Assembly (NCBI GenBank): GCA_947568835.1
Contig: CANOQG010000002.1
Location: 310,001-374,000, forward strand
Origin: Protonemura montana
Lineage: Eukaryota > Arthropoda > Insecta > Plecoptera > Nemouridae
Length of the DNA: 64,000 nucleotides
Direction of reading: 5' to 3'
The notes beneath the pieces are model-generated. The model searched no databases and had not been told where the DNA came from. It was given only the letters and a program-made list of their open reading frames with translations. The translations under genes and the position numbers were made by a program. Within the stretch, counting starts at the first letter, position 1; each line of letters begins with the position of its first letter. Positions 1,483 to 60,758 of this stretch are shown here, piece after piece.

Positions 1483-2236
1483 TTAACCTTATATAAAAGC
1501 CTTAAATTGTGATGTTCAACTTTTTAGTTTGTGGGTGGATGGCTGTCTGGGTGGGTGGCTGGCTGGGATGTAACCGGCCGCTCTACTGTTGATAGAAATT
1601 GCAAAATTCAACTAAAAACGTACGGAAATGGGCTAGAATTTTTCAGAATTAACTTTTACATTGGCGTGCGACATTTTCACAGCGATTAAAAATCGTTTTC
1701 ATGGTGAAAAGTTGCTAAATATGACGGCAAGATATCTCGGAGCCAGGCTATGCAGCTCGATTTGATAACTCTTTTAATACTGAAGTTTGTCTAACCTCGA
1801 GCTTTGCGGTGATTTTTCATGCATTCGTAATAAAGTTGTTGATGTAATTGAGCGAAAACACATTCAATTGCGATCGTTTTACGTGAAAAAGAATTAATTT
1901 TGCTAATAAACTGACAGCTTTGATCAATTGTTTGCTTTTTTGACACCACGGCAAGGTGTACGAAATCGTGAATGTATCTTTTCGGCAGTGCATTCAGGAA
2001 ATTCAAACGTCAAATTTAAACGTCAAAGTCAACGTCAATGTCAAATTCAATTTCAAAATCTCCAAAACTGAACGGAAAACGTGTGAAATTGGCTTCAATT
2101 GTTCAAATACAGTTCAACATCCTGCTACGTCTTTTTCACGATGATTTAAAAGTGTTTTAGTATAGTAAAGTATCAAAAATATTGTTGGTGTTCGGCTATC
2201 AAGATACAAAAGAGTCACATGATTGATCTCGACATT
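1483..2236 (+). repeat. Unit A (shared 5' block), copy A1
   Basis: Starts TTAACC with a TATA-like TATATAAAAG at 1490-1499. A GGGT/GGCT tetranucleotide tract follows near 1531-1567, then the short inverted repeat CGATTaaaAATCG near 1683, then near 2005-2045 a cluster of ACGTCAA/GTCAA motifs, and last a ~100 bp lead into the satellite. The same block opens every module whose start is visible. Short ORFs here (62-71 aa) are not supported as genes. Confidence 0.8.
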
Positions 2237-4707
2237 GTATGGTATTGTATATGATTGTATTATACTGCATGGTATTGTATGGTATTTTATTGTTATGTAT
2301 GGTATTCTTTGGTATTGGATGTTTTTGGATGGTATTTAATATTATTGTTTGATATTGTATGGTATTGAATGAAAATGTATAGTATTCTTTAGTATTCGAC
2401 AGTATTCTATGATATTCTATGGTATATTTTGGTATTCTATGGTATTCTATGGTGTTCTTTGGTGTTCTATGGTGTTCTATGGTGTTCTATGGTATTCTAT
2501 GGTATTCTATGGTATTCTATGGTATTCTATAATATTCTATGAATTTCTATGGTATTCTATGGTATTGTATGGTATTGTATGGTATTGTAAGGTATTCTAA
2601 GGTATTCTTTGGTATTCTATGGTGTTCTATGGTGTTCTATGGTGTTCTATGGTATTCTATGGTATTCTATGGTATTCTATGGTATTCTTTAATATTCTAT
2701 GAAGTTCTATGGTATTCTATGATATTGTATGGTATTGTATGGTATTGTATGGTATTCTATGGTATTCTATGGTATTTAATGGTTTTCTATGGAGTAATAT
2801 GGTATTATATGATATTGTATGGTATTCTATGGTATTCTATGGTATTCAATGGTATTCTATGGTATTTTATAATATTCTACGGAGTTCTATGGTATTATAT
2901 GGAGTTAATGGTATTCTATGGTGTTCTATGGTGTTCTATGGTGTTTTATGGTATTCTATTGTGTTCTATGGTGTTCTATGGTATACTATGGTATTCTATG
3001 GTGTTCCATGGTGTTCTATGGTGTGCTATGGTATTCTATGGTATTCTATTGTGTTCTTTGGTATTCTTTGGTGTTCAATGGCATTCTATGGTATTCTACG
3101 GTATTCTATGGTATTCTATGGTATTCTATGGTATTTTATAATATTCTATGGTATTCTATGGAGTTCTATAGTATTCTATGATATTGTATGGTATTCTATG
3201 GTATTCTATGGTATTCTTTGGTATTCTATGATATTCTATGGTATTCTATGGTGTTCTATGGTATTCAATGGAGTTCTATGGTATTCTATTGTGTTATATG
3301 GTGTTCTATGGTATTTAATGGTATTCTATGGTGTTCTATGGTATTTAATGGAGTTCTATGGTATTATATGATATTCTATGGTATTCTATGGTCTTCTATG
3401 GTATTCTATGGTATTCTATGGTAATCTATGGTATTCTATGGTATTCTATGGTGTTCTATGGAATTCTATAGATTTCTATGGTATTCTGTTGTAATCTAAT
3501 AATTCTATGGTATTCTATGGTATTCTATGGTATTTTATGGTATTTGATGGTATTCTATGGTATTCTATGGTATTCTATGGTATTTTATGGTATTCTATGG
3601 TATTCTATGGTATTTTATGGTATTTTATGGTATTCTATGGTATTCTATGGTATTCTTTGGTTTTCCAAGGTATTCTATGGTATTCTTTAGTATTCTATGG
3701 TATTCTTTAGTATTCTATGGTATTCTTAGGTATTCTATGGAGTTCTATGGTATTCTTTGATATTGTTTGGTATTCTTTGGTAATCCATGGTATTCTATGG
3801 TATTATTTGGTATTCTAAGGTATTCTTTGGTATTCTATGGTATTCTTTAGTATCCTATGGTATTCTATGGTATTCTTTAGTATCCTATGGTATTTTATGG
3901 TATTCTATGGTATTCTATAGTATTCTTTGGTATTCTTTGGTATTCTTTGGTATTCTATGGTATTCTTTGATATTGTATGGTATTCTATGGTATTCTATGG
4001 AATTCTATGATATTGTATGGAATTGTATGGTATTCTATGGTATTCTATGGTATTCTTTGATATTGTAGGGTATCCTATGGTATTCTATGGAATTCTATGA
4101 TATTGTATGGTATTCTATGGTAGTGTATGGTATTATATGGTATTATATGGTATTGTATTGTATTCTATGGTATTCTATAGTATTGTATGGTATTGTTTGG
4201 TTTTGTTTGGAAGTGTATGGTATTTAATGTTTTTGGATGGTATTCTATGAAATTTTATGGGTTTCTTTGATATAATATGGTTCTCTATGGTATTTGGAGG
4301 TATTTGATAGTATTATTTGGTATTCTATGTTGTTGTATGGACTGGTATGGTATTCCATATGTTCCTATGGGTTTCTATATTATTTTATGTAATTTTTTGG
4401 TATCCTTAGGTATTTTATGAGTTTCAATGGATTTCTATGGTATAAGAAGATACTTTATGGTGTTGTTAGGAATTGAATGGTATTCGATGATACAGTTTGG
4501 TATTTTTAGGTATTCTATGGTATTGTATGGTATTGTATGGTATTCTATTGTATTGTATGGTATTCTAGGTCCCCTTTGGTATTGTATGATATTGTTTGGT
4601 ATTTTTTGGGTTTCTTTGGTATTTTATGGCATTTTATGGTATTGTAGTGTATTGAATGGAATTTTATGGTTTTCTTCCGTTTTCTTTGGTATTGAATGGT
4701 TTTCTAT
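2237..4707 (+). repeat. 10-bp satellite array, TATGGTATTC
   Basis: About 2.5 kb of TATGGTATTC units. The left edge has the recognisable series GTATATGATTG...TTTTATTGTTATGTATGG shared with M5, M6, M7 and M11, and the right edge shares the decayed G/T-rich end seen at 900-1399. The middle is more regular, including runs of perfect units near 3500-3650. Confidence 0.95.
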
Positions 4708-4762
4708 CAAAGAAAACTCGAGACACGTTTAAACCAAAATGCCCACTCCCTCAAAATCGTAA

Positions 4763-4790
4763 GGTGCCGTTAGGCATCGGGTACTGCTAG
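4763..4790 (+). other. Helitron 3' terminus (hairpin + CTAG)
   Basis: GGTGCC, GTTA loop, GGCATC (six-pair stem with one G-T pair), eight bases, CTAG at 4787-4790. Directly followed by TTAACC of A2. Confidence 0.8.
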
Positions 4791-5544
4791 TTAACCTTAT
4801 ATAAAAGCCTTAAAATGTGATGTTCAACTTTTTAGTTTGTGGGTGGGTGGCTGGCTGGCTGGCTGGGATGTAACCGGCCGCTCTACTGTTTATGGAAATT
4901 GCGAAATGCGACTCAAAACGTACGGAAATGGGCTAGAATTTTTCAGAATGAACTTTTACATTGGCAGGCGACATTTTCACAGCGATTTAAAATCGTTTTC
5001 ATGGTGAAAAGTTGCTAAATATGACGGCAAGATATCTCAGAGCCAGGCGATGCAGCTCGATTTGATAACTCTTTTAATACTGAAGTTTGTCTAGCCTCGA
5101 GCTTTGCGGTGATTTTTCATGCATTCGTATTAAAGTTGTTGATGTAATTGAGCGAAATCACATTCAATTGCGATCGTTTTACGTGAAAAAGAATTAATTT
5201 TGCTAATAAACTGACAGCTTTGATCAATTGTTTGCTATTTTGACACCACAGCAAGGTGTACGAAATCGTGAATGTATCTTCTCAGCAGTGGATTATCAGG
5301 CCAAATTAAACGTCAAATTCAAACGTCAAAGTCAACGTCAATGTCAAATTATTTTCGAAATATCCAGATCTGAAGGAAAAACGTGTGAAATTGGCTTCTA
5401 TTGTTCAAATACAGTTTTACATCCCGCTACGTCACGGTGATTTTAAAGTGCATTATTATTATTATAGTAAAGTATCAAAAATATTGTTGGTGTCTTGGCT
5501 AGCAAGATGAAAAATAGCCACTTGACAAGCCCGTGGAATTCTTG
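4791..5544 (+). mobile_element. Module M2: truncated, unit A only (copy A2)
   Basis: A unit A copy that runs past the usual end into the sequence ending ...CCCGTGG.ATTCTTG. In M7 and M9 the same sequence continues into unit C, but here it stops at 5544 and a new unit A begins at once. There is no satellite and no CTAG end, so the module lost its 3' part or was interrupted by M3. The ACGTCAA cluster is at about 5308-5348. Confidence 0.6.
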
Positions 5545-6079
5545 TTAACCTTATATAAAAGCTTTAAATCGCGATGTTCAACTTTTTAGTTTGTGGGTAT
5601 ATGGGTGGGTGGATGGCTGGCTGGCTGGGATGTAACCGGCCGCTCTACTGGTTATGGAAATTGCGAAATGCGACTGAAAACGTACGGAAATGGGCTAGAA
5701 TTTTTCAGAATTAACTTTTCCATTGGCAGGCGACATTTTCACAGCGATTTAAAATCGTTTTCATGGTGAAAAGTTGCTTAATATGACGGCAAGATATCTC
5801 AGAGCCAGGCGATGCAGCTCGATTTTATAATTCTTTTAATACTCAAGTTTTTCTAGCCTCGAGCTCCACGGTGATTTTTCATGCATTCGTATTAAAGTTG
5901 TTGATGTAATTGAGCGAAAACACATTCAATTGCGAACGTTTTAAGTGCAAAAAGAATTAATTTTGCTAATAAACTGACAGCTTTGATCAATTGTTTGCTA
6001 TTTTGACACCACGGCAAGGTGTACGAAATCGTGAATGTATCTTTTCAGCAGTGGATCATCAGGCCAAATTAAACGTCAA
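5545..6079 (+). repeat. Unit A, copy A3
   Basis: Starts TTAACC with TATATAAAAG eight bases in. It ends after the GGATCATCAGGCC stretch, where it passes into unit C. It is shorter than A1 because it lacks the ACGTCAA cluster and the satellite lead-in, as in A4 and A10; the unit A copies of RepHel modules share this shorter form. Confidence 0.75.
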
Positions 6080-6771
6080 AATGGGTTGAAATGTCAAACT
6101 CTCAACTAAAACCCCTTTGTTTCTGGCGAAAATCTGTCAAAAACGACAGGAAATGGTTATAATTTGTACCTGATTTCAAAGCACTTTATGAAACGCGACA
6201 TTTGTAAGGTGAGTTGATGGGATACGGCGATTTAAACAGGATTTTAAATTAAACTTCTTATGAAACAGGTGAGTTAGGAAAAAGTTTGACTTATAACAGG
6301 CGTAAAAATCGTATTTTTACGTATTGTATGTAATATTTATAAATATAAATATTTTATTGTATTGTATTGTATACAAAAGACAAAAAATTCTTTAAAATAC
6401 GACGATTTTACTCCATCCCCGGCCTAGACAAGATCACGCAGTTGATTCCAAGCGATCAATGATATTTGCGGCATTAATGCAAATTATCAGTAACTTTAAC
6501 GGATTTCGCAAGCTTTAAAGGCATAAAATATAGTTTTTTCAACAACTAAGACACACTTGATTAGTTTCTTATTGATAATTTTGCCAAAACTAGATTTAAA
6601 GTGACACTGACAGATCAAAGGTAAACATTTGATGGATGTTTTTCATCGACTCAGGATGCCGTGGATATTTATTTTATTTTCGAGAATGCCGTGATCGTTC
6701 AACAGGTATTTAAATTCAAGACGTCATTAATTACAGAGAGCAGTTTAAACAAATCTGATCCAAATACGCAA
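6080..6771 (+). repeat. Unit C (second shared block), copy C1
   Basis: AT-rich block of about 0.7 kb. Its first half (6080-6300) matches 16198-16420 in M4; its second half (about 6340-6771) matches the reverse complement of 34159-34620 (M7) and 42611-43070 (M9). It ends CAAATACGCAATC, exactly where the 10-bp satellite begins. No ORF worth calling. It links the satellite modules to the RepHel modules as one family. Confidence 0.7.
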
Positions 6772-7041
6772 TCTATGGTTTAATATGGTTTTCTATGGAA
6801 TTGTATGGTATTGTATGGTACTCTTTGGTGTTATATGGTATTCTATGGTATTACGTGATATTATATGTTATTGTTTGGTTATTTATGGTATTCTATGGAA
6901 TTGTACGGTTTTGTATTGTATGGTATTCTATGGTATTCTATGATATTGTATGGAAATGTATGGTATCGTTTGGTATTCTATGGTATTCTTTGGTATTGTG
7001 TGTTATATGTTATTCAATGGTATTCATTGGTATTGTATGGT
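6772..7041 (+). repeat. Short 10-bp satellite array
   Basis: About 270 bp of degenerate TATGGTATTC units in the slot between unit C and the RepHel leader. In M4 and M10 that slot holds the AGCAT and 41-bp satellites. Confidence 0.85.
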
Positions 7042-7477
7042 TTTTTTACAGGCGTACAAATTGTATTTTTATTGCATATTTTGTGTTCAATTGTGTTTCT
7101 TTAATGAGTTTTCAGAAATATTTGGTAGTGATTTAAACCGTAATTAATAAGCTAACCTCTAAAGACACATTATTATGATCACTGTCCGCAATAATTTGAC
7201 TTCTGACTTCATTCATTTACAGCGTGTAGCATCGACAGCTTCTTATGGCACGTAATTTAAATTGTCGCGCGTGGTGTAAAGTTTGAATTTGCGTGACGTC
7301 ATTTTACGTAGCGGGTAGTTGGTTTAGCGCTTTTTGATCGGCATCTTCGCTCGGCAATTAGTCACACTCCCAACGCCCGCCAACCGCCATTTGCTAAAGC
7401 AGTTAGTCTAGCATGAGAGTGCGGATTACCTACACGGCGAAACACTCTTGTGGGGAAGAATTTCGTCGCTATTCAAG
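7042..7477 (+). promoter_or_regulatory. RepHel copy 1 promoter/leader with putative non-coding exon 1
   Basis: Upstream region conserved with copies 2 and 3 from TGCATATTTTGTGTTC (about 7069) onward. It contains a perfect CRE-type palindrome TGACGTCA at 7294-7301. A G/C-richer stretch at about 7370-7477 ends CAAG|GTAATC, a good splice donor, so I take it as the 3' part of a non-coding first exon. The transcription start is not visible. The first ~25 bases (ACAGGCGTA...) also match 16412-16440 of unit C in M4. Confidence 0.5.
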
Positions 7478-7974
7478 GTAATCTACTTTCATATTTAATT
7501 TGCATGTCACAATATCCACTAATAGTCAACCCCTAATATCATCAAGTGATTCAATTATTTATAGTGATATTATAGCGTTTAGCTTCTAAATTATTATTAA
7601 AATTATCGTTCATCATCAAGACTGGAAAGCATACATTTTGCCCGTCTTGTGGAAATTTCCGTGACGTCACTTTTACGTAACATGATGCAATCGCTCGACG
7701 CGATTCTCATCCCCCTCCCCAACCCTCCCATGCCCTCCGTTCCAACAATTAGAAGTGTGTTCAACATGGCGTCCAAGCTCGCATTCGAAGCAAATTAGCA
7801 TATTTCTTTGTAAAGAAACTGAATTGATTGTTGTGCATATTAAAGCATACATTTAGCCTGACATGATATTTGAGTTAGGTCATTTTTACAAAACATGGCG
7901 GTTGGTTCGTGCTCAGCCACGCTCCGCTTCAGCTCGGCGACGCTAGGCACTAAAACCTCGCTTTCTTTACACAG
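7478..7974 (+). other. Putative 5'-UTR intron of RepHel copy 1
   Basis: Donor GTAATC at 7478 and acceptor TTTCTTTACACAG ending at 7974, immediately before the ATG. The interval holds ATGs in good context that are out of frame with RepHel (for example 7895), which would block translation if retained. Splicing also changes the -3 base of the start codon from C to A, a better initiation context. A second TGACGTCA lies at 7662-7669. Both splice signals are kept in copies 2 and 3. Confidence 0.55.
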
Positions 7975-10900
7975 ATGCCACCTAAGAAGCGTGTAAATCT
8001 GACGTCTCGGAAAGGCGGGAAAGGTGCAACGGCAAGAGCAGAGAGCGCGGCGGCAAAGAAAAGGGCTGCTGCTGACGAGAGAGCGAGGACGAGAGAGACG
8101 GCCGAGCACGCCGACCATCAGGCGACTGCTAGCCCGTCGACGTCGACGCTCGACGAGCAGCGTCCTTTTCTTTCCGCTGTTCTCAGAGAAGCCCCGGTAA
8201 GTGTCATTAAGCATGATTTCTTATTAGAACAGGCCGCCCCCGCTACTCTTCCAGCTTTTTATGATCAACCCTCTACAAGCCGCTATATGCATTCCTTTCC
8301 CGACAATGTGCCATCTGAACTCCCATCCCTTGACCAGACTCAGATCCTGGAAAATTCAGTTGGCCAGCTCCAAGAGGACAAGAACGTGCAAGTAGCAGCA
8401 AACGAACGAAGTGCCCGATTAGCGGAAAAAGCTAGAAATGCTCGCCAGCGCAGAAAGGCTGAGGATGAGGCCCAACGTCTTCTGCGTCTGGCTCAGGTTG
8501 CCGAGTCGAAGCGTCGACGACTAGACGAAGCTTCTGAGGGACGACGCCTACAGCTTCTTGCTGAAAAGGCCGAGTCTGAGCGCCTCCGCTTGGCAAAATG
8601 TACGGAAGAACAGCGCCTTCAGCGACTGGCCCTTAAGGCAGAGGCAGAGCGTCACCGCTTGAGTGGCGAAGCTGACGAACAGCGCCTTCAGCGATTGGCC
8701 CTTAAGGCAGAGGCAGAGCGTCGCCGCTTGAGTGACGAAGATGACCAACAGCGCCTTCAGCGGTTGGCCCTTAAGGCTGAGGCAGAGCGTCGCCGCTTGA
8801 GTGACGAAGCTGACCAACAGCGCCTTCAGCGACTAGCCCTTAAGGCAGAGTCAAAGCGTCGCCACTTGAGTGACGAAGCTGACGAACAGCGCCTTCAGCG
8901 ACTAGCCCTTAAGGCAGAGTCAAAGCGTCGCCGCTTGAGTGACGAAGCTGACGAACAGCGCCTTCAGCGACTAGCCCTTAAGGCAGAGTCAGAGCGTCGC
9001 CGCTTGAGTGACGAAGCTGACCAACAGCGGCTTCAGAGACTAGCCCTTATGGCAGAGTCCAAGCGTCGCCGCTTGAGTGACGAATCTGAGGAACAGCGCC
9101 TTCAGCGATTAAGCCAGAAGGCAGTTCAAACGCAGTCTGAAAGGCAGCATGAGACTCCAGAGGCGCGCGAGAGCCGTATAGTCGCCGCGCGGGAGCGATC
9201 ACAGCAGCGTCGAAATGCCGAGACCAGGGATAAGCTCGTGGCGCTCGAAGTGGAAGTCTCTCAGCGCGCTGAGGAGGAGGCGTCTCAACGCGCCCAAGAG
9301 GCTGAACTAGAGCAAAGCCAGCGAGTCGCGGTCGAGGCTATTGACGTGGCAGACGATCAGTTTGAACCTGATCTTGCTCCAGTGAACCTTCATCCTTTCC
9401 ACTTGGAGGCTGCACGGCAAGACGTCGCTGACGTCGCCGTATTTCACTGCGGCAGCATGGACGAAGTATGCAGGGTGTGCGGCGCTCTGTACTTCGTAGG
9501 AGAGCGTCCTTCTGACAAAATTTATAAACTCTGTTGTCACTCGGGCAACGTAATCCTTGAGCCTCTCCTCGCGTATCCCGATTTAATGCATGCGTTGCTG
9601 ACCGGAGATCATTGCGAGTCTAAGAACTTCCGCAAAAACATCCGGTCGTACAACAGTTCGCTCTCCTTCGCTTCAGTCGGAGTTAAGACGGACATCCCCC
9701 AGGGCCGTGGCACATACTGTTTTCGTGTCCATGGCAACATCCAGCATAGGATCGGCCATATGGGGCAGGCGGTGCAGAAGCCCCTCTATTCGCACCTGTA
9801 CTTTCTTGACGCGGAACAAGCGAAGACGCATCGAATGGACAGGCGCCAGAATGCTAATCTGCTACCCAACCTGCTTCATGAGCTGGACGCGCTGGTTCGC
9901 GAAATAAATCCTTTTGCCCAAGGGCTTAAAACGTTAGGTCAGGTGGAGGCCGACGACAGGATCCGTGCAGCTGCCGAGGGGCGACCCGAGGTCATGGCCG
10001 AACTGCGTTTCGTGGATGACCGACGGCGGCTGTACGAAAATCCTACGGCCCACGAGGTGGCCGTTGTCTATCAGAGCGTTGACGGTGGCATGCCTCCTCT
10101 AGGACGTGATATTCGTATCCATACTCGTGGCGGATTTATTGAGCAGCTGTCTGTCCTGTCGCCCAACACGGATCCGCTCAGCTACGTGCTGTTGTTCCCG
10201 CGTGGAGAACCCGGCTGGCAACGAGGTATGCCGCACACCAGGCAATCTAAGCACAGCGTCGTCACTCTAATGGAGTTTTATAGCCATCGACTCCACGAGC
10301 GTGTCGGCGCCTTCCATCCAGTGCTGCACGCCGGCAAGCTGACGCAGCAGTTTATGGTAGACGCCTATATCAAGGTTGAGGGCAATCGCCTTGAGTTCGT
10401 CATCAGGAACCAGAAAACGCTGCGCGCCGAACTCTACAGTGGGCTCATGGACCACTTGGCGAACCGTGCTGAGCGGCAGGGCTGCAATGTCGGGAAGATG
10501 GTGATTCTGCCTTCCAGTTTCATCGGAAGCCCCAGGCATTGCCAGCAGCTATATCAAGACGCTATGAGTATCGTCACCAAGTTTGGAAAACCCGATCTTT
10601 TCCTTACTATGACGTGTAATCCGAAGTGGCCTGAGATTCAGACGAGCCTAGCGGCGTACGAAAGGGCAGAAGACCGACCCGATCTCACCGCGCGAGTATT
10701 CCAACTTAAACTCAAGGAGCTCATGTCTGATCTCACCAAGAGGCACGTGCTGGGCGTTCCCATGGCTCACTTCCACGTGATCGAGTTCCAAAAACGTGGA
10801 CTCCCTCACGCCCACATCCTGGTAATCCTTCGCGACGAGGACAAGATCCGCACTCCCGAGGAGGTAGACGCACTTATCTGTGCCGAGTTGCCCGATCCGG

Positions 10901-13725
10901 TGACCGAGGAGAGACTGCACAAGGTCATCGTGTCGTCGATGATCCACGGCCCGTGCGGCGCTCGGAACATGTCCTCTGTGTGCATGGAGGACGGAAAGTG
11001 TAAGAAGAAGTTCCCCAAGTCGTTCACAGATGTGACTGTGGTCAACGAGGGGGGTTTCACCGTCTATCGCCGTCGAGAGAGCGGGCAGACGCATTCCATC
11101 TCAGGAAGAGTGGTCGACAACCGAGACGTAGTGCCTTACAACAAGTACTTAAGCTCCAAGTTTGACTGCCACCTGAACATCGAGCACTGTGGATCCGCGA
11201 AGACGGTCAAGTACCTGTGCAAGTACGTGTACAAAGGTCACGACTGTGCCAGGGTCCAGCTCCGCGTCTCTGTCCCCGCGGAGGGCGATCATGAGCCACG
11301 TCCAGCGCACGGTGCCCAGCAAGAGTTGGTGTGGGACGAGGTCTCACAGTTCATCGACTCTCGCTACGTGAGTCCCCAAGAGGCTGCGTGGAGAATTTTC
11401 GGATTTGAAATGCACGAAAAGTCGCACACTATCATCCGTTTGGCGATCCACCTCGAGGGTGACCACATGGTCACGTTCCGTCCTGGAGACGAGGAAGCCG
11501 CAGCAGAACGCGGCAGGGCTGCGCTGACTACGCTGACGGCATGGTTTGCGCTGAATAGTAGCAACCCGGCGGCACGGCAGTACAAGTACATCGACATCCC
11601 GTACCACTTCCGTTTCGAGGGCAAAGCGTGGAAGCCACGTAAGCGAGGTGCCGGCTCCATCATCAGCCGAATGTACTCCGTGACGCCCCGGCAGATCGAG
11701 CGATACCATCTTCGCCTCCTTTTGCTACACGTCGCCGGCGCCACCTCATTCGAGGACGTGCGCACGTTCCAGGGTAGGGTTTACGCTACCTTCAAGGAAG
11801 CTGCCATCGCACGCAACCTGCTAATGGACGACGACGAGTGGCAGAAATGTCTGCAGGAGGCGGTTGCTATAAAGATGCCAAACGAACTTCGTCAGCTGTT
11901 TGCCATCATTTGCGCGTTCTGTCAGCCTCTTGACCCGCTGTCTCTATGGGAGCGTTTCAAGGGCGATTTCTGCGAAGATTTCGCCCGAGAACACGACCCC
12001 ATCGAGGCAGAACAGTTGGCCCTGAATTCCATCCAGTCCGTCCTTGCCCTACACCGCCTGACCAACGCCGAAATCGGTTTGCCGGCGCCTCGAGTGCCAG
12101 TCATCGTTGCTGTCGACGAGCAGTTCGACCAGACCGCCGAAAGGGAAGAGGCCGAGGAGAACGTGGTGAAGCTCAACGGCAGGCAGCGCGTGGCATTCGA
12201 CGCGGTGATGGCAGCAATCGACGACCCGAACGCCGAGCAGAGGTGCTTCTACCTGGACGGCCCGGGCGGCAGCGGGAAGACCTTCCTATACAACACCCTC
12301 ATCAGCACGCTGCGAGCCCGAGGCGAGCGAGCCGTGGCCGTCGCGTGGACGGGCATTGCGGCGACGTTACTGAAGGGAGGGAGGACCTGCCACTCGCGAT
12401 TTCGATTGCCTGTTCCGATTGTGGAAAACAGCACGTCTGGCGTGAAGCCCAACTCCGCCGAGGGCGCTTCGCTGAGGGCGGCCAAGGTCATCATCTTGGA
12501 TGAAGGACCCATGGCGCCTCTGCTGGCCCTGAACGTGATCGAGCGGACGCTAAGAGACGTGACAAACGATGAGCGTCCTTTCGGCGGAAAGGTGATCGTT
12601 ATCGGCGGGGATTTTAGGCAGTGCCTCCCAGTCGTTCGAAATGGCAACCGAACGACCATTGTCGAGCAATGCATTAAGCGTGGCGCGCTTTGGTCGTTGT
12701 TCCGCACCCTCGAGCTGCGCGCGAACATGCGCGCCAACCCAGGCGAAGTAGAGTTCGTCGAGTGGCTCTTGCGTGTCGGAAACGGCGAGATTTTGAATGA
12801 CTGCCACCTCCCGGATGACACCATCGCATTACCTGTCCAATGCGTCGTGGACTGCGTCATTGACGCCGTCTTCGGCACGAGCATTAGTGCTGCCGAGATG
12901 GCCGTGATGCAAGACCATGCCATCCTCTGCCCGAAGAACGTGGAGTCTTTGAACATCAATGACAACGTTCTTGAGCGCCTCGAAGGTGACGTGTTCGAAT
13001 ACTGCAGCGCCGACACTGTCGATGTCAGTGAAGGCGAAGATGGCGACGTTTTGGCTACCGATTATCCCGTAGAATATCTAAATTCATTAACGCCATCCGG
13101 GATGCCACCGCACAAGCTTCGTCTGAAAGTTCATGCAATCGTGATGCTCATGAGGAACGTCGACGTGAGAGCCGGCCTATGCAATGGGACTCGACTCAGC
13201 GTTGTTGCACTCCACGAGCACGTGATCGACTGCAGGATCATCGGAGGGCGCTGTGCGGGACGACGCACTTTCCTATGTAGAGTCAACCTAACTCCCTCGG
13301 ACATTGGCATGCCCTTTACGATGACAAGGCGCCAGTTTCCGATCCGTCTGGCATTCGCCATGACCATCAATAAAGCCCAGGGTCAATCTTTAAAGAGGGT
13401 GGGAATTCATTTAGAAAAACCAGTATTCGGACACGGTCAGCTATACGTGGCGCTTTCTCGGGCTCGCTCTTTGGACTCGATCTTCGTGGCAGTCGCCGGT
13501 AACGAGGCGCAGGGCAAGTTGATCGTCTCGAGCAACACCACCTTCACCAAGAACATCGTGTACCAGGAGGTGCTCGAGATTCATGCGCCGGACCACCAGG
13601 CAGCGGATCCTTCCTCGCGTAGTGGCTATCAAGAGGCTGACCAGCAGGCCCTTGAGCAGTCGCTTAGTCAACTCGCTGTATCGGATGCGGATGAAGAAGT
13701 TCCAATGGACGCCTCCTCCTCCTAA
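7975..13725 (+). CDS. Helitron Rep/helicase (RepHel) copy 1, 1916 aa
   Basis: Rolling-circle transposase that would nick and rejoin Helitron ends (Rep) and unwind DNA (PIF1-type, superfamily 1 helicase). Residues 1-60 are basic (PPKKR at the start, a possible nuclear signal). About 140-400 is a charged coiled-coil region containing seven 23-aa repeats. A Cys cluster CRVC...CCH lies at 499-522. Rep: FLTMTCNPKW at 876-885, HUH motif LPHAHIL with His945 and His947, and Tyr1080/Tyr1084 in YLCKYVYKG. Helicase: LNGRQ at 1400, Walker A GPGGSGKT at 1429-1436, LDEGPM with Asp1509/Glu1510, GGDFRQ at 1544, INKAQGQS at 1798, YVALSRAR at 1824. No OTU, RPA or endonuclease domain is evident. The frame is open throughout and GC-rich against AT-rich flanks. 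The ATG follows the predicted splice acceptor directly. Function is inferred from motifs; activity is not shown. Confidence 0.95.
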   Translation: MPPKKRVNLTSRKGGKGATARAESAAAKKRAAADERARTRETAEHADHQATASPSTSTLDEQRPFLSAVLREAPVSVIKHDFLLEQAAPATLPAFYDQPSTSRYMHSFPDNVPSELPSLDQTQILENSVGQLQEDKNVQVAANERSARLAEKARNARQRRKAEDEAQRLLRLAQVAESKRRRLDEASEGRRLQLLAEKAESERLRLAKCTEEQRLQRLALKAEAERHRLSGEADEQRLQRLALKAEAERRRLSDEDDQQRLQRLALKAEAERRRLSDEADQQRLQRLALKAESKRRHLSDEADEQRLQRLALKAESKRRRLSDEADEQRLQRLALKAESERRRLSDEADQQRLQRLALMAESKRRRLSDESEEQRLQRLSQKAVQTQSERQHETPEARESRIVAARERSQQRRNAETRDKLVALEVEVSQRAEEEASQRAQEAELEQSQRVAVEAIDVADDQFEPDLAPVNLHPFHLEAARQDVADVAVFHCGSMDEVCRVCGALYFVGERPSDKIYKLCCHSGNVILEPLLAYPDLMHALLTGDHCESKNFRKNIRSYNSSLSFASVGVKTDIPQGRGTYCFRVHGNIQHRIGHMGQAVQKPLYSHLYFLDAEQAKTHRMDRRQNANLLPNLLHELDALVREINPFAQGLKTLGQVEADDRIRAAAEGRPEVMAELRFVDDRRRLYENPTAHEVAVVYQSVDGGMPPLGRDIRIHTRGGFIEQLSVLSPNTDPLSYVLLFPRGEPGWQRGMPHTRQSKHSVVTLMEFYSHRLHERVGAFHPVLHAGKLTQQFMVDAYIKVEGNRLEFVIRNQKTLRAELYSGLMDHLANRAERQGCNVGKMVILPSSFIGSPRHCQQLYQDAMSIVTKFGKPDLFLTMTCNPKWPEIQTSLAAYERAEDRPDLTARVFQLKLKELMSDLTKRHVLGVPMAHFHVIEFQKRGLPHAHILVILRDEDKIRTPEEVDALICAELPDPVTEERLHKVIVSSMIHGPCGARNMSSVCMEDGKCKKKFPKSFTDVTVVNEGGFTVYRRRESGQTHSISGRVVDNRDVVPYNKYLSSKFDCHLNIEHCGSAKTVKYLCKYVYKGHDCARVQLRVSVPAEGDHEPRPAHGAQQELVWDEVSQFIDSRYVSPQEAAWRIFGFEMHEKSHTIIRLAIHLEGDHMVTFRPGDEEAAAERGRAALTTLTAWFALNSSNPAARQYKYIDIPYHFRFEGKAWKPRKRGAGSIISRMYSVTPRQIERYHLRLLLLHVAGATSFEDVRTFQGRVYATFKEAAIARNLLMDDDEWQKCLQEAVAIKMPNELRQLFAIICAFCQPLDPLSLWERFKGDFCEDFAREHDPIEAEQLALNSIQSVLALHRLTNAEIGLPAPRVPVIVAVDEQFDQTAEREEAEENVVKLNGRQRVAFDAVMAAIDDPNAEQRCFYLDGPGGSGKTFLYNTLISTLRARGERAVAVAWTGIAATLLKGGRTCHSRFRLPVPIVENSTSGVKPNSAEGASLRAAKVIILDEGPMAPLLALNVIERTLRDVTNDERPFGGKVIVIGGDFRQCLPVVRNGNRTTIVEQCIKRGALWSLFRTLELRANMRANPGEVEFVEWLLRVGNGEILNDCHLPDDTIALPVQCVVDCVIDAVFGTSISAAEMAVMQDHAILCPKNVESLNINDNVLERLEGDVFEYCSADTVDVSEGEDGDVLATDYPVEYLNSLTPSGMPPHKLRLKVHAIVMLMRNVDVRAGLCNGTRLSVVALHEHVIDCRIIGGRCAGRRTFLCRVNLTPSDIGMPFTMTRRQFPIRLAFAMTINKAQGQSLKRVGIHLEKPVFGHGQLYVALSRARSLDSIFVAVAGNEAQGKLIVSSNTTFTKNIVYQEVLEIHAPDHQAADPSSRSGYQEADQQALEQSLSQLAVSDADEEVPMDASSS
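8611..9093 (+). repeat. 69-bp coding tandem repeat, 7 units
   Basis: Seven head-to-tail 69-bp units, each coding for 23 residues of the form QRLQRLALKAE-(S/A)-(K/E)-RRRLSDEADE, within the coiled-coil region of RepHel copy 1. Copies 2 and 3 have three units. The four extra units (276 bp, 92 aa) account exactly for the 1916 versus 1824 aa lengths. Confidence 0.95.
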
Positions 13726-14034
13726 ATCCTATCATTGTACTATCCCTTACATTTGCAATAGCGGTAACATTTCCTAGATAAATTTAAATTCAGTAAGGCT
13801 AGGTAGGGCAGACCAGGAACCGTGACTAGCACGGCAGGTAGAAACCCAATTCCCATATATTTCACCATGCTGACACGCTTTTCTGCTGCAGGTATAAAGC
13901 ACCGGACGCCGCATAGCCCTTTAACTTCACGACCATTGCGCTCGCATGTGGACACTCTAACGGAACTGCTCCTCCCAGAGCTAGACAATTATGCATGTAC
14001 ATTAATTGATAGATTATATTGTACATACATTTAG
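13726..14034 (+). other. RepHel copy 1 immediate 3' flank
   Basis: About 310 bp conserved in all four RepHel copies. It contains the small inverted repeat CCGTG-actag-CACGG near 13819-13833 and a possible acceptor-like TTTTCTGCTGCAG near 13879-13891. A 70-aa ORF at 13822-14034 stays open in all copies but has only amino-acid-changing differences, so I do not call it a gene. Confidence 0.4.
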
Positions 14035-14508
14035 TAAAGTAGTTACTTCTAACTAATAGTATTAGAAATGCAGCCTGCTGTTTTCTATCTGCATGTCATG
14101 CATGTTCCAAAAATAAAAAATAAAAATAAAAAAACATATCGTAGATTTCGTAAAGTAGTGATTCAGTAGTAAGTAGTAGTAGTTGGTAAGCAAGTAGTTT
14201 ATAGTTATGCAACCTGCTGTTTTCCATCTGCATGTCATGCATGTTCAAAAAAACAAAAAAACAAAAAAAAAATCATAGATTTAGTAAAGTAGTTACTAAG
14301 TAGTAAGTAGTAGTAGTTGGTAAGTAAGTAGTTAATAGTTATGCAACCTGCTGTTTTCTATCTGCATGTCATGCATGTTCAAAAAAACAAAAAAAAAAAA
14401 AAAAAATATCATAGATTTAGTAAAGTATTTACTAAGTAGTAATTAGTAGTAGTTGGTAAGTAAGTAGTTAATAGTTATGCAACCTGCTGTTTTCTATCTG
14501 CATGTTTG
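14035..14508 (+). repeat. ~136-bp tandem repeat with A-tracts, 3' of RepHel copy 1
   Basis: About 3.5 units of 134-139 bp. Each contains CCTGCTGTTTTCTATCTG, CATGTCATGCATG, a long A-rich tract and a GTAGTAGTAG-type stretch. CCTGCTG recurs at 14074, 14213, 14347 and 14483. AATAAA-like sequences in the first A-tract could serve for polyadenylation. The same array follows the gene in all four copies. Confidence 0.85.
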
Positions 14509-14788
14509 CAATTTTTTTAAGGTCACAATCTTACTTTCGTGTCGGTCTTTTTACTGCATGTTTCTCTTTTCTTGATTCCATCTTGGAATGTCAAACCAAC
14601 TAACCACCAAGCATGATAGCATTGCATCAGTCTAAAAACTGAATAATGCATCCTACCTATCCGACACAGTTGATCCTTGCATGTATCCTTGCATGTCCGC
14701 ACATCAGAGATTCCTGTTGCTTGCAACGGGCTGCACAATCTTTGATAGTGTAAGGCAGAGGCGATGTAGTGTGTGACGATCGCCATGC

Positions 14789-14815
14789 TGCCGGGGCGGG
14801 ATGGGGGCCCCGGCA
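14789..14815 (+). other. GC-rich hairpin 3' of RepHel copy 1
   Basis: Perfect 9-bp stem TGCCGGGGC / GCCCCGGCA around a 9-base G-rich loop, in otherwise AT-rich DNA. It is identical in all four copies. It lies ~860 bp before the CTAG end and no CTRR follows it, so it is not the terminal hairpin. It could be a relic 3' end of an inner element, a transcription-end structure or a replication-pausing site. Confidence 0.75.
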
Positions 14816-15650
14816 TAACAAATATTTTTAAAATTCTCTCACTTAACAGCTTGAATACATTTAGGAACTTTTCATTTCTCCAAGAATGGTGCCTCTCTCT
14901 TGCCGTCTTTTTTATTTTGTTTTAGACCCCCCCCCTCCCCCTGCTAATCGTGGAGAAGGAACTTCTTCATGGCACCATTGCGGAGATTACTTTCAATTAC
15001 GAATGAACAGTGGCGCTACTGCGGCATGGCTGGTCTGCATTGACTGTTGCTTTCAAATGGTCAAAGTTTTCAACGCAAATCGTCGTAAACATGTGAATAT
15101 TTCTTATATTTGTAAAAATGATCATAATATTGGCAAATAAAAATTACAATAATGAATAGGTTCATTTTTTGTGTGTTTAATCTTCAAAAAAAAACCTTCG
15201 TCACTGAAACCAAACCAAAAATATTTGTAATGATTCCTTTCTGTCCAAAAAGCACACCAAATGGTTGTGTCCTTATAAGCAATGCTGCTGGTTAGCCATC
15301 ATCGTTGAAGGTACTGGCGGAAATCAGGCATAGTATGGTATATCAAGTCGTAAGGGCACAATACTTTGTTTTCTTGCCATTTTTTCAGTACTTTATTTTG
15401 TTGTCCCATAAAAGTTTCTTAAATGTATGCGTAGAGGCTACATTAAGTGTTAAGTCTCAGTTCGGTCCCAGGGCTTAGGGACTAGATTTTGGCCTAGGCC
15501 CATATATTTTTGTCATGACTTATCCTATCGGCACATGCCCTATGGGCATAGGGTACTAGAAAAATAGTAGTGAGCTATTTCTCATTGTTAATCAAAGTTC
15601 AAAGACAATACTAATATACTAAAATAAAACCACTAGGGATAAGAACAACA
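14816..15650 (+). other. Conserved 3' region of RepHel module M3
   Basis: About 835 bp shared by all four RepHel modules between the GC hairpin and the terminus. It includes an acceptor-like TTTTATTTTGTTTTAG before a C-tract (about 14911-14940), a short Cys-containing ORF ending at 15140, AATAAA at about 15136, and from 15400 to 15560 a block with the inverted repeat TGCCC-tat-GGGCA. That block resembles 19381-19580 in M4. No convincing gene. Confidence 0.5.
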
Positions 15651-39230: not shown

Positions 39231-39288
39231 TTAAGATTTTGAGGGAGTGGGCATTTTGGTTTAAACGTGTCTCGAGTTTTCTTTGATA

Positions 39289-51319: not shown

Positions 51320-51815
51320 CTGTGTAAAGAAAGCGAGGCTTTAGTAATGCCTAGCGTAGCCGAGCTGACGCGGGAATGGCTGAGCACGAACCGACCGCCA
51401 TGTTCAATAAAAGTGACCTCACGCAAATATCATGCCAGGCTAAATGTATGCTTTAATATGCACAACAATCACTTCAGTTTCTTTACAAAGAAATATGCTA
51501 ATTTGCTTCGAATGCGAGCTTGGACGCCATGTTGAACACACTTCTAATTGTTGGAACGGTGGGCATGGGAGGGTTGGGGAGGGGGATGAGAATCGCGTCG
51601 AGCGATTGCATCATGTTACGTAAAAATGACGTCATGGAAATATCCACAAGACGGGCAAAATGTATGCTTTCCAGTCTTGATGATGAACGATAATTTTAAT
51701 AATTAAGTAGCTAAACGCTATAAAATCACTATAAATAATTGAATCACTTGATGATATCAGTGGTTGACTATTACTGGATATTGTGACATGCAAATTAAAT
51801 CTGAAATAAGATTAC
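51320..51815 (-). other. Putative 5'-UTR intron of RepHel copy 3
   Basis: Donor GTAATC at 51815 and acceptor next to the ATG at 51320, read on the - strand. CRE palindrome at 51627-51634. Confidence 0.55.
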
Positions 51816-52221
51816 CTTGAATAGCGACGAAATTCTTCCCCACAAGAGTGTTTCGCCGTGTAGGTAATCCGCACTCTCATGCTATACTAACTGCTATAGC
51901 AAATGGCGGTTGGCGAGCTTTGGGAGTGTGACTAATTGCCGAGCGTGGATGCCGATCAAAAAGCGGTAACCAACAACCCGCTACGTAAAATGACGTCACG
52001 CAAATTCAAACTTGAACACCACGCGCGACGATTTAAATTACGTGCCATAAGAAGCTGTCGATGCTACACGCTGTAAATGAATGAAGCCAGAAGTCAAATT
52101 ATTGTGGTCAGTGATCATAATAATATGTCTTTAGAGGTTAACTAATTAATTACGCGTTAAATCACTACTAAATTTATCTGAAAACTCATTAAAGAAACAC
52201 AATTGAACACAAAATATGCAC
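51816..52221 (-). promoter_or_regulatory. RepHel copy 3 promoter/leader with putative exon 1
   Basis: CRE palindrome TGACGTCA at 51991-51998. The exon region carries two substitutions near 51885-51897 compared with copies 1 and 2 but keeps the donor. Homology with the copy 1 leader ends at the TGCATATTTTGTG segment (about 52221). Confidence 0.5.
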
Positions 52222-52512
52222 CTTTGCCTTTTTAAAGCCTTTTATGGGACCACCACCCAAAGAACTAAGAAAATAAATAAGAAAATATAGTTTTTGGCCC
52301 TTTCGATTTAAATAAGCATTTTGCCTCTTCACCAGTAGCTACCCTATGCTCTGCGGGCATGCCCGATGGCCAGATCATTACTCAAATATGGCCCTAGTCC
52401 ATTACCTAGGTCCTCAGACCTGGGATATATTTCTTTTTAAAATATGTCTTTTAATGTACATTCAGAAGGCATTATTAAAGCCCATTGCCCAATAGATGTA
52501 AAGATACAAACT
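52222..52512 (-). other. Spacer upstream of RepHel copy 3 with palindromes
   Basis: Reverse counterpart of 19291-19585, with CGGGCATGCCCG near 52357. AGGTCT-ga-AGACCT is altered here to a shorter match near 52410-52425. No ORF. Confidence 0.5.
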
Positions 52513-53852
52513 GCTGATTTAAAAAAATCTGGATAGAGCATAGGATCCAGCCAGCTGATCTCAAATAACATGGATAGAGCATAGGATCCAGCCAGCTGAT
52601 CTCAAATAACCTGGATAGAGCATAGGATCCAGCCAGCTGATCTCAAATAACCTGGATAGAGCATAGGATCCAGCCAGCTGATCTCAAATAACATGGATAG
52701 AGCATAGGATCCAGCCAGCTGATCTCAGATAACCTGAATAGAACATAGGATCCACCCAGCTGATCTCAAATAACCTGAAAAGAGCATAGAATCCAGTCAG
52801 CTGATCTCAAATAACCTGGATAGAGCATAGGATCCAGCCAGCTGATCTCAAATAACCTGGATAGAGCATAGGATCCAGCTAGCTGATCTCAAATAACCTG
52901 GATAGAGCATAGGATCCAGCCAGCTGATCTCAAATAACCTGGATAGAGTATAGGATCCAGTCAGCTGATCTCAAATAACCTGGATAGAGCATAGGATCCA
53001 CCCAGCTGATCTCAAATAACCTGGATAGAGCATAGGATCCAGCCAGCTTATCTCAAATAACCTGGATAGAGCATAGGATCCAGCTAGCTGATCTCAAATA
53101 ACCTGGATAGAGCATAGGATCCAGCCAGCTGATCTCAAATAACCTGGATAGAGCATAGGATCCAGCCAGCTGATCTTAAATAATCTGGATAGAGCATAGG
53201 ATCCAGTCAGCTGATCTCAAATAACCTGGATAGAGCATAGGATCCAGCCAGCTGATCTCAAATAACCTGGATAGAGCATAGGATCCAGCCAGCTAATCTC
53301 AAATAACCTGGATAGACCATAGGATCCAGCCAGCTGATCTCAAATAACCTGGATAGAGCATAGGATCCACCCAGCTGATCTCAAATAACCTGGATAGAGC
53401 ATAGGATCCAGCCAGCTGATCTCAAATAACCTGGATAGAGCATAGGATCCAGCCAGCTGATCTCAAATAACCTGGATAGAGCATAGGATCCAGCCAGCTG
53501 ATCTCAAATAACCTGGATAGAGCATAGGATCCAGCCAGGTGATCTCAAATAACCTGGATAGAGCATAGGATCAAGCCATCTGATCTCAAATAACCTGGAT
53601 AGAGCATAGGATCCACCCAGCTGATCTCAAATAACCTGGATAGAGCATAGGATCCAGCCAGCTGATCTCAAATAACCTGGATAGAGCATAGGATCCAGCC
53701 AGCTGATCTCAAATAACCTGGATAGAGCATAGGATCCAGCCAGCTGATCTCAAATAACCTGGATAGAGCATAGGATCCAGCCAGCTGATCTCAAATAACC
53801 TGGATAGAGCATAGGATCCAGCCAGCTGATCTCAAATAACATGAATAGAGCT
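52513..53852 (-). repeat. 41-bp satellite array, ~33 units
   Basis: Same 41-bp unit as 18201-19290 in reverse orientation, about six units longer. Variants CCACCCAGC and TCAGTCAGC recur at several places, consistent with block duplication inside the array. Confidence 0.95.
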
Positions 53853-53941
53853 CTAGATATAAAACCTGTAAAATCCGTATTCCATGCTGAGGTTGCTAGC
53901 AATAGAAATTAAACCCACAGGTGATTTGCATTAAAGTCAGA
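53853..53941 (-). other. Spacer between 41-bp and AGCAT satellites
   Basis: Reverse counterpart of 18109-18200; carries the GCTAGCAA...GTGATTTGCAT segment that recurs in unit C at about 56233-56300. Confidence 0.6.
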
Positions 53942-55904
53942 TTGCTATGCTTTGTTATTCTATGCTATGCTATGCTCTGCTATGTTATGTTATGCTATGC
54001 TTTGCTATGCTATGCTTTGCTTTGCTTTGCTATGCTTTGCTATGCTATGCTATGCTTTGCTTTGCTATGCTATGCTATGCTTTGTTATTCTATGCTATGC
54101 TATGCTATGCTATGTTATGTTATGCTATGCTTTGCTATGCTATGCTTTGCTTTGCTTTGCTATGCTTTGCTATGCTATGCTATGCTTTGCTATGCTATGC
54201 TATGCTATGCTATGCTTTGCTATGCTTTGCTATGCTTTGCTATGCTATGCTTTGCTATGATATGCTTTGCTATGCTATGCTATGCTTTGATAAGCTATGC
54301 TATGCTATGCTATGCTATGCTTTGCTATGCTTTGCTTTGCTATGATATGCTTTGCTATGCTATGCTATGCTTTGATAAGCTATGCTATGCTATGCTATGC
54401 TATGCTTTGCTATGCTTTGCTATGCTATGCTATGCTTTGCTATGCTTTGCTATGATATGCTTTGCTATGCTATGCTATGCTTTGATAAGCTATGCTATGC
54501 TTTTCTATGCTATGCTATGCTATGCTATGCTATGCTATGCTATGCTCTGCTATGCTATGCTTTGATAAGCTATGCTATGCTATGCTTTGATAAGCTATGC
54601 TATGCTATGCTTTGCTATGCTATGCTTTGATAAGCTATGCTATGCTATGCTATTCTATGCTATGCTTTGCTATGATATGCTTTGCTTTGCTATGCTATGC
54701 TATGCTATGCTATGCTTTGCAATGCTATGCTATGCTTTGCTATGCCTTGCTATGCTATGCTATGCTATGCTTTGCTTTGCTATGCTTTGCTATGCTTTGC
54801 TATGCTATGCTTTGCTTTGCTTTGCTATGCTATGCTTTGATAAGCTATGCTATGCTATGCTTTGCCATGCTATGCTTTGATAAACTATGCTATGCTATGC
54901 TATTCTATGCTATGCTTTGCTATGATATGCTATGCTATGCTATGCTATGCTATGCTATGCTATGCTTTGCAATGCTATGCTATGCTTTGCTATGCTCTGC
55001 TATGCTATGCTATGCTATGCTATGCTTTGCTATGCTTTGCTATGCTTTGCTATGCTATGCTTTGCTTTGCTATGCTATGCTATGCTATGTTATGCTATGC
55101 TTTGCTATGCTTTGCTATGCTATGCTTTGCTATGCTTTGCTATGCTTTGCTATGATATGCTTTGCTATGCTATGCTATGCTTTGATAAGCTTTGCTATGC
55201 TATGCTTTTCTATGCTATGCTATGCTATGCTATGCTATGCTATGCTTTGCTCTGCTATGCTATGCTTTGATAAGTTTGCTATGCTTTGCTTTGCTTTGCT
55301 ATGCTATGCTATGCTATGCTTTGCTATGCTATGCTTTGATAAGCTATGCTATGCTTTGCTATTCTATGCTTTGCTATGCTATGCTATGCTATGCTTTGCT
55401 TTGCTATGCTATGCTATGCTATGCTTTGCTATGCTATGCTTTGATAAGCTATGCTATGCTTTGCTATTCTACGCTTTGCTATGCTTTGCTATTCTATGCT
55501 TTGCTATGATATGCTATGCTATGCTCTGCTATGCTATGCTTTGATAAGCTATGCTATGCTTTGCTTTGCTTTGCTATGCTATGCTATGCTATGCTTTGCT
55601 ATGCTATGCTTTGATAAGCTATGCTATGCTTTGCTATTCTATGCTTTGCTATGCTATGCTATGCTATGCTATGCTATGCTTTGCTATGATATGCTATGCT
55701 ATGCAATGCTATGCTATGCTATGCTATGCTTTGCAATGCTATGCTATGCTTTGCTATGCTTTGCTATGCTATGCTTTGCTATGCTTTGCTATGCTATGCT
55801 ATGCTATGCTATGCTATGCTTTGCTATGCTATGCTATGCTATGCTTTGCTATGCTATGCTATGCTTTGCTATGCTATGCTATGCTTTGCTGTGCTATGCT
55901 ATGC
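53942..55904 (-). repeat. 5-bp satellite array, AGCAT on - strand
   Basis: About 1.96 kb. It contains many TTTGATAAGC variants (at least a dozen, against about four in the M4 array), often followed by the same run of units, which points to local amplification of blocks of about 70-260 bp carrying this marker. Confidence 0.95.
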
Positions 55905-56709
55905 CAAATGTTCAGGACAGCCTTTAAAATTGCCAAAGAAATTGTGAATGCATTGTTTTTCGCATTCAAAACAATTAATAGGTACCTTGATATAGGTACC
56001 AATTACGTATTTGCGCGGTAAAAAAAAAAAAAAATTAAATAAAAATGTTCTCACTAAACACTTTGCGTTTGAAAACCTGTTGCTAATTCACGGCAGTCTT
56101 GAAAATTATAATTTTTTTCACGGCTTCTTACGTCGATGCAAAAGAATTGTCACCTGTTTTTGCGATCTGTCACTCAAAATCAAGATTTGTCGGAATAATC
56201 TCAAAAAAACATGTTTAGTATAGTTTGGTTGTTAAGAAATCCATATTCCATGCTTAGGTTGCTAGCAATGGAAAGTTAACCCACAGGTGATTTGCATAAA
56301 AGTCGGAAATATCATTTCCGTTTGAAATTGGTGGTGGAATCTTGTCTAGGTTGGGGTTGAATAGTATGCGTCGTATTTGAACAATTTCGGCTTAAATCGG
56401 CAAGATGTTTATACCTTTATGAAACACAATTAAACTAAAGAAATTCAATTGAACACAAAATGTGCAATAAAAATGCAATTTTTACGCCTGTAAAGAGTCA
56501 AACTTTTTCCTTACCTACCTGTTTCATATGAAGTGGCATTTGGAATCCTGTCAAATCGCCGTATGCCATCAACTCACCTTAAAAATGTCGCGTTTCATAT
56601 CATGCTTCGAAATCATGTACAAATTATAACCATTTCCTGTCGTTTTTGACCGATTTTCGCCAAAAACAAAGGGGTTTTAGTAGATTGTTTAACATTTAAA
56701 CCCATTTTG
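55905..56709 (-). repeat. Unit C variant, copy C5
   Basis: Reverse counterpart of 16198-16994, including GGTACC...GGTACC near 55981-56000 and the TATGCAAATCACC segment. No gene. Confidence 0.7.
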
Positions 56710-57225
56710 ACATTTAATTTGGCCTGATAATCCACTGCTGAGAAGATACATTCACGATTTCGTACACCTTGCTGTGGTGTCAAAATAGCAAACAATTGAT
56801 TAAAGCTGTCAGTGTATTAGCAAAATTAATTCTTTTTCACGTAAAACGATCGCAATTGAATGTGTTTTCGCTCAATTACATCAACAACTTTATTACGAAT
56901 GCATGAAAAATCACCGCAAAGCTCGAGGCTAGAAAAACTTGAGTATTAAAATAGTTATAAAATCGAGCTGCATCGCCTGGCTCTGAGATATCTTGCCGTC
57001 ATATTTAGCAATTTTTCACCATGAAAACGATTTTTAATCGCTGTGAAAATGTCGCACGCCAATGTAAAAGTTAATTCTGAAAAATTCTAGCCCATTTTCG
57101 TACGTTTTGAGTCGAATTTCGCAATTTCTATAAACAGTAGAGCGGCCGGTCACATCCCAGCCACCTACCTACCCACAAACTAAAAAGTTGAACATCACAA
57201 TTTTAAAGCTTTTATATAAGGTTAA
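56710..57225 (-). repeat. Unit A, copy A10
   Basis: Starts TTAACC at 57225; carries the GTGACCGGCC variant shared with A4 and the same short GGTAGGTAGG tract. Confidence 0.8.
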
Positions 57226-60012: not shown

Positions 60013-60758
60013 TGTCGAGATCAATCAAGTGACTCTTTTGTATCTTGCTAGCCGAACACCAACAATATTTTTGATACTTTACTTTACTAAAACACTTTTA
60101 AATCATCGTGAAAAAGACGTAGCAGGATGTAAAACTGTATTTGAACAATAGAAGCCAATTTCACACGTTTTTCCGTTCAGTTTTGGAGATTTTGAAATTG
60201 AATTTGACATTGACGTTGACTTTGACGTTTAAATTTGACGTTTGAATTTCCTGAATGCACTGCCGAAAAGATACATTCACGATTTCGTACACCTTGAAGT
60301 GGTGTCAAAAAAGCAAACAATTGATCAAAGCTGTCAGTTTATTAGCAAAATTAATTCTTTTTCACGTTAAACGATCGCAATTGAATGTGTTTTCGCTCAA
60401 TTACATCAACAACTTTATTACGAATGCATGAAAAATCACCGCAAAGCTCGAGGCTAGAAAAACTTGAGTATTAAAATAGTTATAAAATCGAGCTGCATCG
60501 CCTGGCTCTGAGATATCTTGCCGTCATATTTAGCAACTTTTCACCATGAAAACGATTTTTAATCGCTGTGAAAATGTCGCACGCCAATGTAAAAGTTAAT
60601 TCTGAAAAATTCTAGCCCATTTCCGTACGTTTTGAGTCTCATTTCGCAATTTCCATAACCAGTAGAGCGGCCGGTTACATCCCAGCCACCCACCCAGCCA
60701 GCTACCCACAAACTAAAAAGTTGAACATCACAATTTTAAAGCTTTTATATAAGGTTAA
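60013..60758 (-). repeat. Unit A, copy A11
   Basis: Full-length unit A starting TTAACC at 60758, with the ACGTCAA cluster near 60200-60245. Confidence 0.8.

Follow-up and report, generated by a model that had tools for sequence, protein, structure and literature searches.

The window, a stretch of 64,000 nucleotides from Protonemura montana, is occupied by transposon units joined head to tail (Table 1). Neighbouring units meet at the 21-mer CTAGTTAACCTTATATAAAAG, in which the CTAG that closes one unit is followed directly, with no intervening base, by the left terminus TTAACCTTATATAAAAG of the next. The 21-mer has ten exact matches in the window, five on each strand, and all of them lie where the earlier note had placed them. 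In shuffled windows (n=100), the mean number of junction matches with up to three mismatches was 0.01. An eleventh match at 5541-5561 is one base off, with CTTG for CTAG. The 17-mer TTAACCTTATATAAAAG by itself occurs 11 times in the window; the ten left termini given in the earlier note are present, and the one at 5545, behind CTTG, was absent from its list. Complete units measure 2,442-13,326 bp, which agrees with the range of 2.4-13.3 kb given before.

Table 1. Units and Rep/helicase reading frames in the window
Positions	Strand	Feature
1..1482	+	3′ part of non-autonomous unit, ends CTAG; 5′ end outside at C7:308301
1483..4790	+	Non-autonomous unit of 3,308 bp with left terminus, 10-bp repeat and CTAG right terminus
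4791..5544	+	754-bp 5′ unit fragment, ends CTTG; next left terminus adjoins without the usual right terminus
5545..15678	+	Autonomous unit, 10,134 bp
7975..13725	+	Rep/helicase ORF, 1,916 aa; HAH at 945, YLCKY at 1080, Walker A at 1429
15679..27913	+	Autonomous unit, 12,235 bp
20489..25963	+	Rep/helicase ORF, 1,824 aa; Helraiser 7lcc_A match, 1,279 bits
27914..30355	+	Non-autonomous unit, 2,442 bp
30356..31156	+	5′-terminal 801 bp of unit, broken at A^T by minus-strand array
31157..35430	-	3′-most unit of nested minus array, 4,274 bp; CTAG, then T of the interrupted unit
35431..39202	-	Non-autonomous unit, 3,772 bp
39203..43899	-	Non-autonomous unit, 4,697 bp
43900..57225	-	Autonomous unit, 13,326 bp; 98.5% identity to 15679-27913 over 9.7 kb
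45845..51319	-	Rep/helicase ORF, 1,824 aa; differs from ORF 20489..25963 at 10 aa
57226..60758	-	Non-autonomous unit, 3,533 bp
60759..64000	-	3′ part of autonomous unit (11,189 bp), start outside at C7:381947
62837-63970	-	Helicase end of ORF, in the partial autonomous unit 60759..64000

A plus-strand array enters the window from the left, with a further junction at C7:308301, and a minus-strand array enters from the right, with another at C7:381948. The minus array ends at 31157, within the plus-strand unit that begins at 30356. At the break point, four relatives of this unit read A/TG, which places the minus array in an A^T of the plus unit. The inversion in the middle of the window is a nested insertion of a minus-strand array; the fetched sequence covers one of its two edges.

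The 754-bp fragment stops at CTTG at a point where two aligned intact units continue. The remainder of this unit was not found behind a 3′ end when searched with one exact pattern, and an early stop of replication is therefore likely; a later deletion is possible.

The non-autonomous units contain long, diverged repeats of 10 bp (ATGGTATTCT). These stretches, at 1-1399, 2269-4707, 28700-30223, 31251-34135 and 57346-59978, have a strong strand asymmetry, with an absolute GC skew of up to 0.49.

Three autonomous units in the window have open Rep/helicase frames. The HUH motif (HAH), the two-tyrosine motif (YLCKY) and Walker A (GPGGSGKT) are present in all three full ORFs, and Helitron_like_N, PIF1 and Pif1_2B are above the cut-off in each of them. 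For the ORF at 20489, which was the one queried, the best PDB match was Helraiser over residues 281-1776. Helraiser Y727/Y731 align on the YLCKY of these proteins. No endonuclease family was listed for the three full ORFs at E ≤ 0.01. Matches to the Rep/helicase are spread across animals and a fungus. The modules are Helitron-type rolling-circle transposons. Autonomous and non-autonomous units of the window share about the first 530 bp (89-95%) and about the last 30 bp, and presumably one transposase moves both.

A 69-bp repeat lies in the N-terminal part of the Rep/helicase ORF, at an STPR match. It has 7.3 copies at 8608-9108 and 3.3 copies at 21122-21346, and four such repeats equal the 92-aa length difference between the ORFs. 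The three ORFs have about 56% G+C and their surroundings about 30-40%. In two autonomous units, a GCATA array and a 41-bp satellite (26.7 copies within 16996-19292 and 32.7 copies within 52513-55904) lie between the left terminus and the ORF. Rfam at gathering scores and a plasmid search gave no match.

All ten exact junctions in the window have TT on the 5′ side of the element and CTAG on the 3′ side, the latter in agreement with CTRR. A left terminus with a TC start has no exact match in the genome, which bears out the variant 5′ end considered in the earlier note. Because the usual 5′ TC is replaced, we class these elements as Helitron-type, with a variant 5′ end, and not as canonical Helitrons.

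That note had also suggested a search for solo copies preceded by A, and we ran it genome-wide. It gave 313 left termini TTAACCTTATATAAAAG preceded by A, C or T; among the first 100 of these 313 as listed, the preceding base is A in 98 and T in 2. One of the 98 (C4:71808) is an array junction with an altered CTAG. Since the left termini listed nearly all follow A, the shared first stretch, called unit A, is the element's own 5′ end; the other explanation offered for it, host flank amplified together with the element, did not hold. At the opposite end, T follows 27 of the 28 free 3′ ends in the fetched arrays (n=28 after dropping A39, a 1-bp search artefact). Contig C1 has seven starts that lack a junction. 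Followed downstream on their own strand, six of them lead to a strict 3′ end and one to CTAT (compared by eye). Variant 3′ ends are CTTG (window 5541) and CTAT (C1:32341546 and C4:71809).

When the flanks of a nested copy on C2 are joined, the usual sequence is restored exactly, at T^T, with no target-site duplication; the restored sequence is present in 12 fetched loci, some of them overlapping. The element thus spans TT to CTAG and inserts between A and T without a target-site duplication, its start being ambiguous by one T (the right flank is also T). A 3′ stem ending 10-12 nt before the end was predicted in three of four folded variants, none of which folds clearly better than its shuffles (z -1.57, -1.45, -0.39 and -0.43).

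The exact junction occurs 645 times in the genome of 258.5 Mb (385 forward and 260 reverse), and the reversed pattern, used as a control on the whole genome, had no match. The earlier note was right about the Helitron-type nature, the exact ends and the head-to-tail joining. About 60% of the strict 3′ ends (648 of 1,077 genome-wide) run directly into TTAACC, and about two thirds of the left termini counted (645/958) are tandem junctions. A variant left terminus, TTAACCTAAAAG, which has a 5-bp deletion, also stands exactly behind CTAG at C4:81988 and C4:84003 (L073), so 645 is a lower bound. On C1, some strict 3′ ends have no exact left terminus nearby, which means that diverged copies escape these counts.

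Contigs C1-C3 hold 79 starts and 84 exact junctions, of which 79 could be assigned to a start and 5 were orphans. No exact junction follows 44 of the starts, and the other 35 head arrays of up to nine units. With the 5 orphans excluded, the numbers of starts with none, one, two and so on up to eight junctions are 44, 16, 6, 8, 2, 1, 1, 0 and 1. This distribution is approximately geometric and far from Poisson (mean 1.00, variance 2.44).

Insertions close to the boundary are few. Two A^T sites lie within the left terminus, 9 and 11 bp in, and an exact search pattern for copies inserted at these sites had one match. The nested copy on C2 splits a left terminus after 22 bp, and on C3 a second start lies 132 bp behind another start. 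Array A00 may also have hit the inside of a left terminus, to go by its left flank (TTAACCTTATA). Set against these few, the 645 junctions at the boundary indicate that joining is base-exact and far commoner there than alongside.

To describe the composition of the arrays, we extracted 105 units (one of them the 1-bp artefact) from 46 arrays; those of 850-1150 bp, 79 in all, were aligned. After removal of four duplicated arrays (6 units), 32 adjacent pairs of units of about 1 kb were left. Identity reaches 99% in only one of these 32 pairs. In 31 pairs, each partner is closer to a unit at another locus than to its neighbour. Units 1 and 2 of A08 are 99.7% identical. Long (L) and short (S) length classes succeed one another in any order (LL 9, SS 9, LS 8 and SL 6). 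Where the same ordered pair was sought at two loci, the best minimum identity was 0.990, and with the order reversed it was 0.984; shared ordered pairs are hardly better than reversed ones. Seven kb of A27 and 3 kb of A08 were used as queries, and elsewhere neither had a multi-unit match above 97%. Single units of other arrays reach 99.9% identity between loci. This composition argues against head-to-tail replication of one circle and, for A27 and A08, the two arrays tested, against composites that had been assembled before they transposed.

The query results also included two sets of three arrays that are equal or nearly equal, one at C5:20816313, C8:87158 and C10:70900 (L080-L082) and the other at C8:635000, C8:646125 and C7:667148 (L083-L085). 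Within each set, the host flank on the one side fetched (601-base stretches) is shared, with 0-1 mismatch in about 580 bases or more. Because the flank is shared, the arrays of each set are duplicates, either segmental duplications or haplotigs in the assembly.

Growth at the left edge only would make the left units younger. Such a gradient was not found, either by terminal branch (38 v 34 of 74 pairs, P 0.39) or by private substitutions (39 v 27 of 74 pairs, P 0.15), and the first and last units of 17 arrays did not differ significantly (P 0.38 and 0.062). This fits addition at any junction and does not prove it.

Neighbours resemble each other somewhat more than shuffled units do, with an identity of 0.933 v 0.906 (P 0.0007), or 0.965 v 0.938 (P 0.0001) when units were shuffled within their length class. 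Over the last 45 bp of 57 adjacent pairs, the mean distance was 4.33 v 7.24 after shuffling, and none of 5,000 shuffles was as low. In the same 57 pairs, the last 45 bp of neighbours were identical no more often than shuffled (P 0.09), and bases 17-48 showed no excess likeness (P 0.62). Addition was thus not wholly random, or conversion followed it.

Near-identical units differ in blocks, some of which are confined to one end, and these block-wise differences indicate that recombination between copies is common. In near-identical pairs, 16% of the differences fall in the first 60 bp compared with 6% in pairs of 94-96% identity, a clear excess. The last 90 bp also hold 16% of the differences in near-identical pairs, but the value is 9-15% in the other identity bins, without a trend, and an excess there is doubtful. 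Terminal exchange or general gene conversion may underlie these differences. In A27, a pair of units is duplicated (5-6 and 7-8, at 99.9% and 99.4%), and units 2 and 4 of A04 are 99.7% alike. A 375-bp host segment is duplicated together with its arrays at C1:282880-296970, with 1 mismatch; the first units differ (1,078 v 1,101 bp) and the last two units are nearly the same. We dropped this duplication as a direct record of left-edge growth. The left-hand unit searched has no listed relative above 95% and is for this reason probably older than the duplication.

Our main reading, to which we give a probability of about 0.45, is that new copies join residents in trans, either at their 5′ end or at a CTAG/TT junction between them. 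A first copy would insert at an A^T. The Rep/helicase would then take the resident left terminus, or a CTAG/TT junction within an array, as its preferred site of nicking and as its target. The 3′-OH of the CTAG end of the incoming copy would be joined to the nicked TT end of the resident. This would be the chemistry by which Helitrons close their circles, acting here between two copies. The TT end of the newcomer would be joined to the upstream A or G. If every left terminus were an equal target, repeated rounds would give mixed head-to-tail arrays of geometric length, to which unequal crossing-over would afterwards add a few near-identical repeats. Addition in trans is suggested by junctions that are exact at the boundary, by starts that follow A and free ends that precede T, and by the mixed composition, the free order of length classes, the geometric junction counts and the catalytic motifs. 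The missing age gradient, the likeness of neighbours, the block-wise differences and the hits inside left termini count against a simple form of it. A bolder version, in which the transposase would treat any resident left terminus as an attachment site and join incoming copies to it in trans, is tentative, and we put its chances clearly below even.

Exact junctions would also arise without special targeting if circles that already carry a CTAG/TT junction recombined with resident copies and unequal crossing-over then reshuffled the arrays. The circle itself would bring the exact junction, and circles of this kind are formed by Helraiser according to the part of PMC5876387 drawn on here. The duplicated pair in A27, the alike units of A04 and the host segment duplicated with its arrays on C1 are what such recombination would leave, as are the blocks of difference, some at one end only, and the likeness of the last 45 bp of neighbours. 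However, near-identical neighbours are scarce (the single pair among 32), and recombination alone leaves unexplained why 648 of 1,077 strict 3′ ends adjoin another copy. We regard it as unlikely, though with a real chance of being right. Joining could also precede insertion, if co-replicating copies were linked 3′ to 5′ in trans and the mixed concatemer entered a single A^T in one piece. This would equally give the mixed composition, the geometric lengths and the absence of a significant age gradient, but private substitutions, a rough measure, can vary strongly within an array (0-9.4 per kb in A08 and 2.1-12.8 per kb in A33), and we consider it improbable.

If the 3′ end were bypassed in a donor array of mixed units, two or more neighbouring units would move together. 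Bypass is the explanation given for tandem Helitrons in bat and silkworm in the section of PMC4067079 consulted, and for Helraiser's capture of genes as cited in an excerpt of PMC5148889. Strings of units do recur at C5/C8/C10 and C7/C8. These sets, however, share host flank on the side fetched and are duplications or haplotigs, and multi-unit matches of A27 and A08 elsewhere stay at or below 97% while single units of other arrays reach 99.9%, which leaves bypass decidedly improbable. The reading first proposed for the window was a concatemer rolled off a single circle by replication past the 3′ end. It accounts for the exact junctions and their orientation, and the first two units of A08 are as alike as it would have them. 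A concatemer from one circle should consist of near-identical units, but 31 of the 32 adjacent pairs are below 99% identity; they consist of different copies, each with its nearest sampled relative at another locus. As a general explanation it is contradicted and very improbable; single pairs may have arisen in this way.

The family has several features in common with Helraiser/Helibat1, namely one large Rep/helicase with HUH and two tyrosines, a Pif1-type helicase, a 3′ CTAG and insertion at A^T. It differs in its 5′ end, which is TT and not TC, in the proportion of left termini that are tandem (about two thirds) and in the STPR repeats in the N-terminal part. Circles with an exact junction of CTAG and 5′ end have been shown for Helraiser (PMC5876387, as excerpted). 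Helentron/Helitron2 elements have an endonuclease domain and a T-rich target; here no endonuclease was listed and the target is A^T.

Tandem Helitrons are described for bat (Myotis), silkworm (Bombyx), maize, rice, Drosophila and plant centromeres in the portions available of PMC5148889, PMC5876387 and PMC4067079, and unlike neighbours are mentioned there for bat and maize. These arrays are likewise tandem copies and are explained in those portions by bypass or circles. For a three-copy tandem Helitron of Metarhizium acridum, the relevant passage of PMC5148889 names two routes, repeated insertion at the 5′ end and copying of a circle by rolling-circle replication, and leaves the choice undecided. 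That is a single case of a fungal Helitron2-type element, and the two alternatives are the same as those raised here. Searches of open-licence PMC papers gave no report of hundreds of exact mixed-copy junctions dispersed over chromosomes. Tandem Helitrons are already known, and the scale and the mixed composition are what this genome adds.

The readings of the origin of tandem Helitrons found in these excerpts are bypass of the 3′ end, replication of a circle and repeated insertion at the 5′ end. With more than 600 exact junctions between distinguishable copies, this origin becomes testable in living material. If left termini act as attachment sites, dispersed, cassette-like mixed arrays would replace insertion at random A^T sites, and one terminus would be both replication origin and target. 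If joining in trans is true, a Helitron terminus would itself serve as a landing site, and arrays of Helitrons could evolve by accumulating unlike cassettes.
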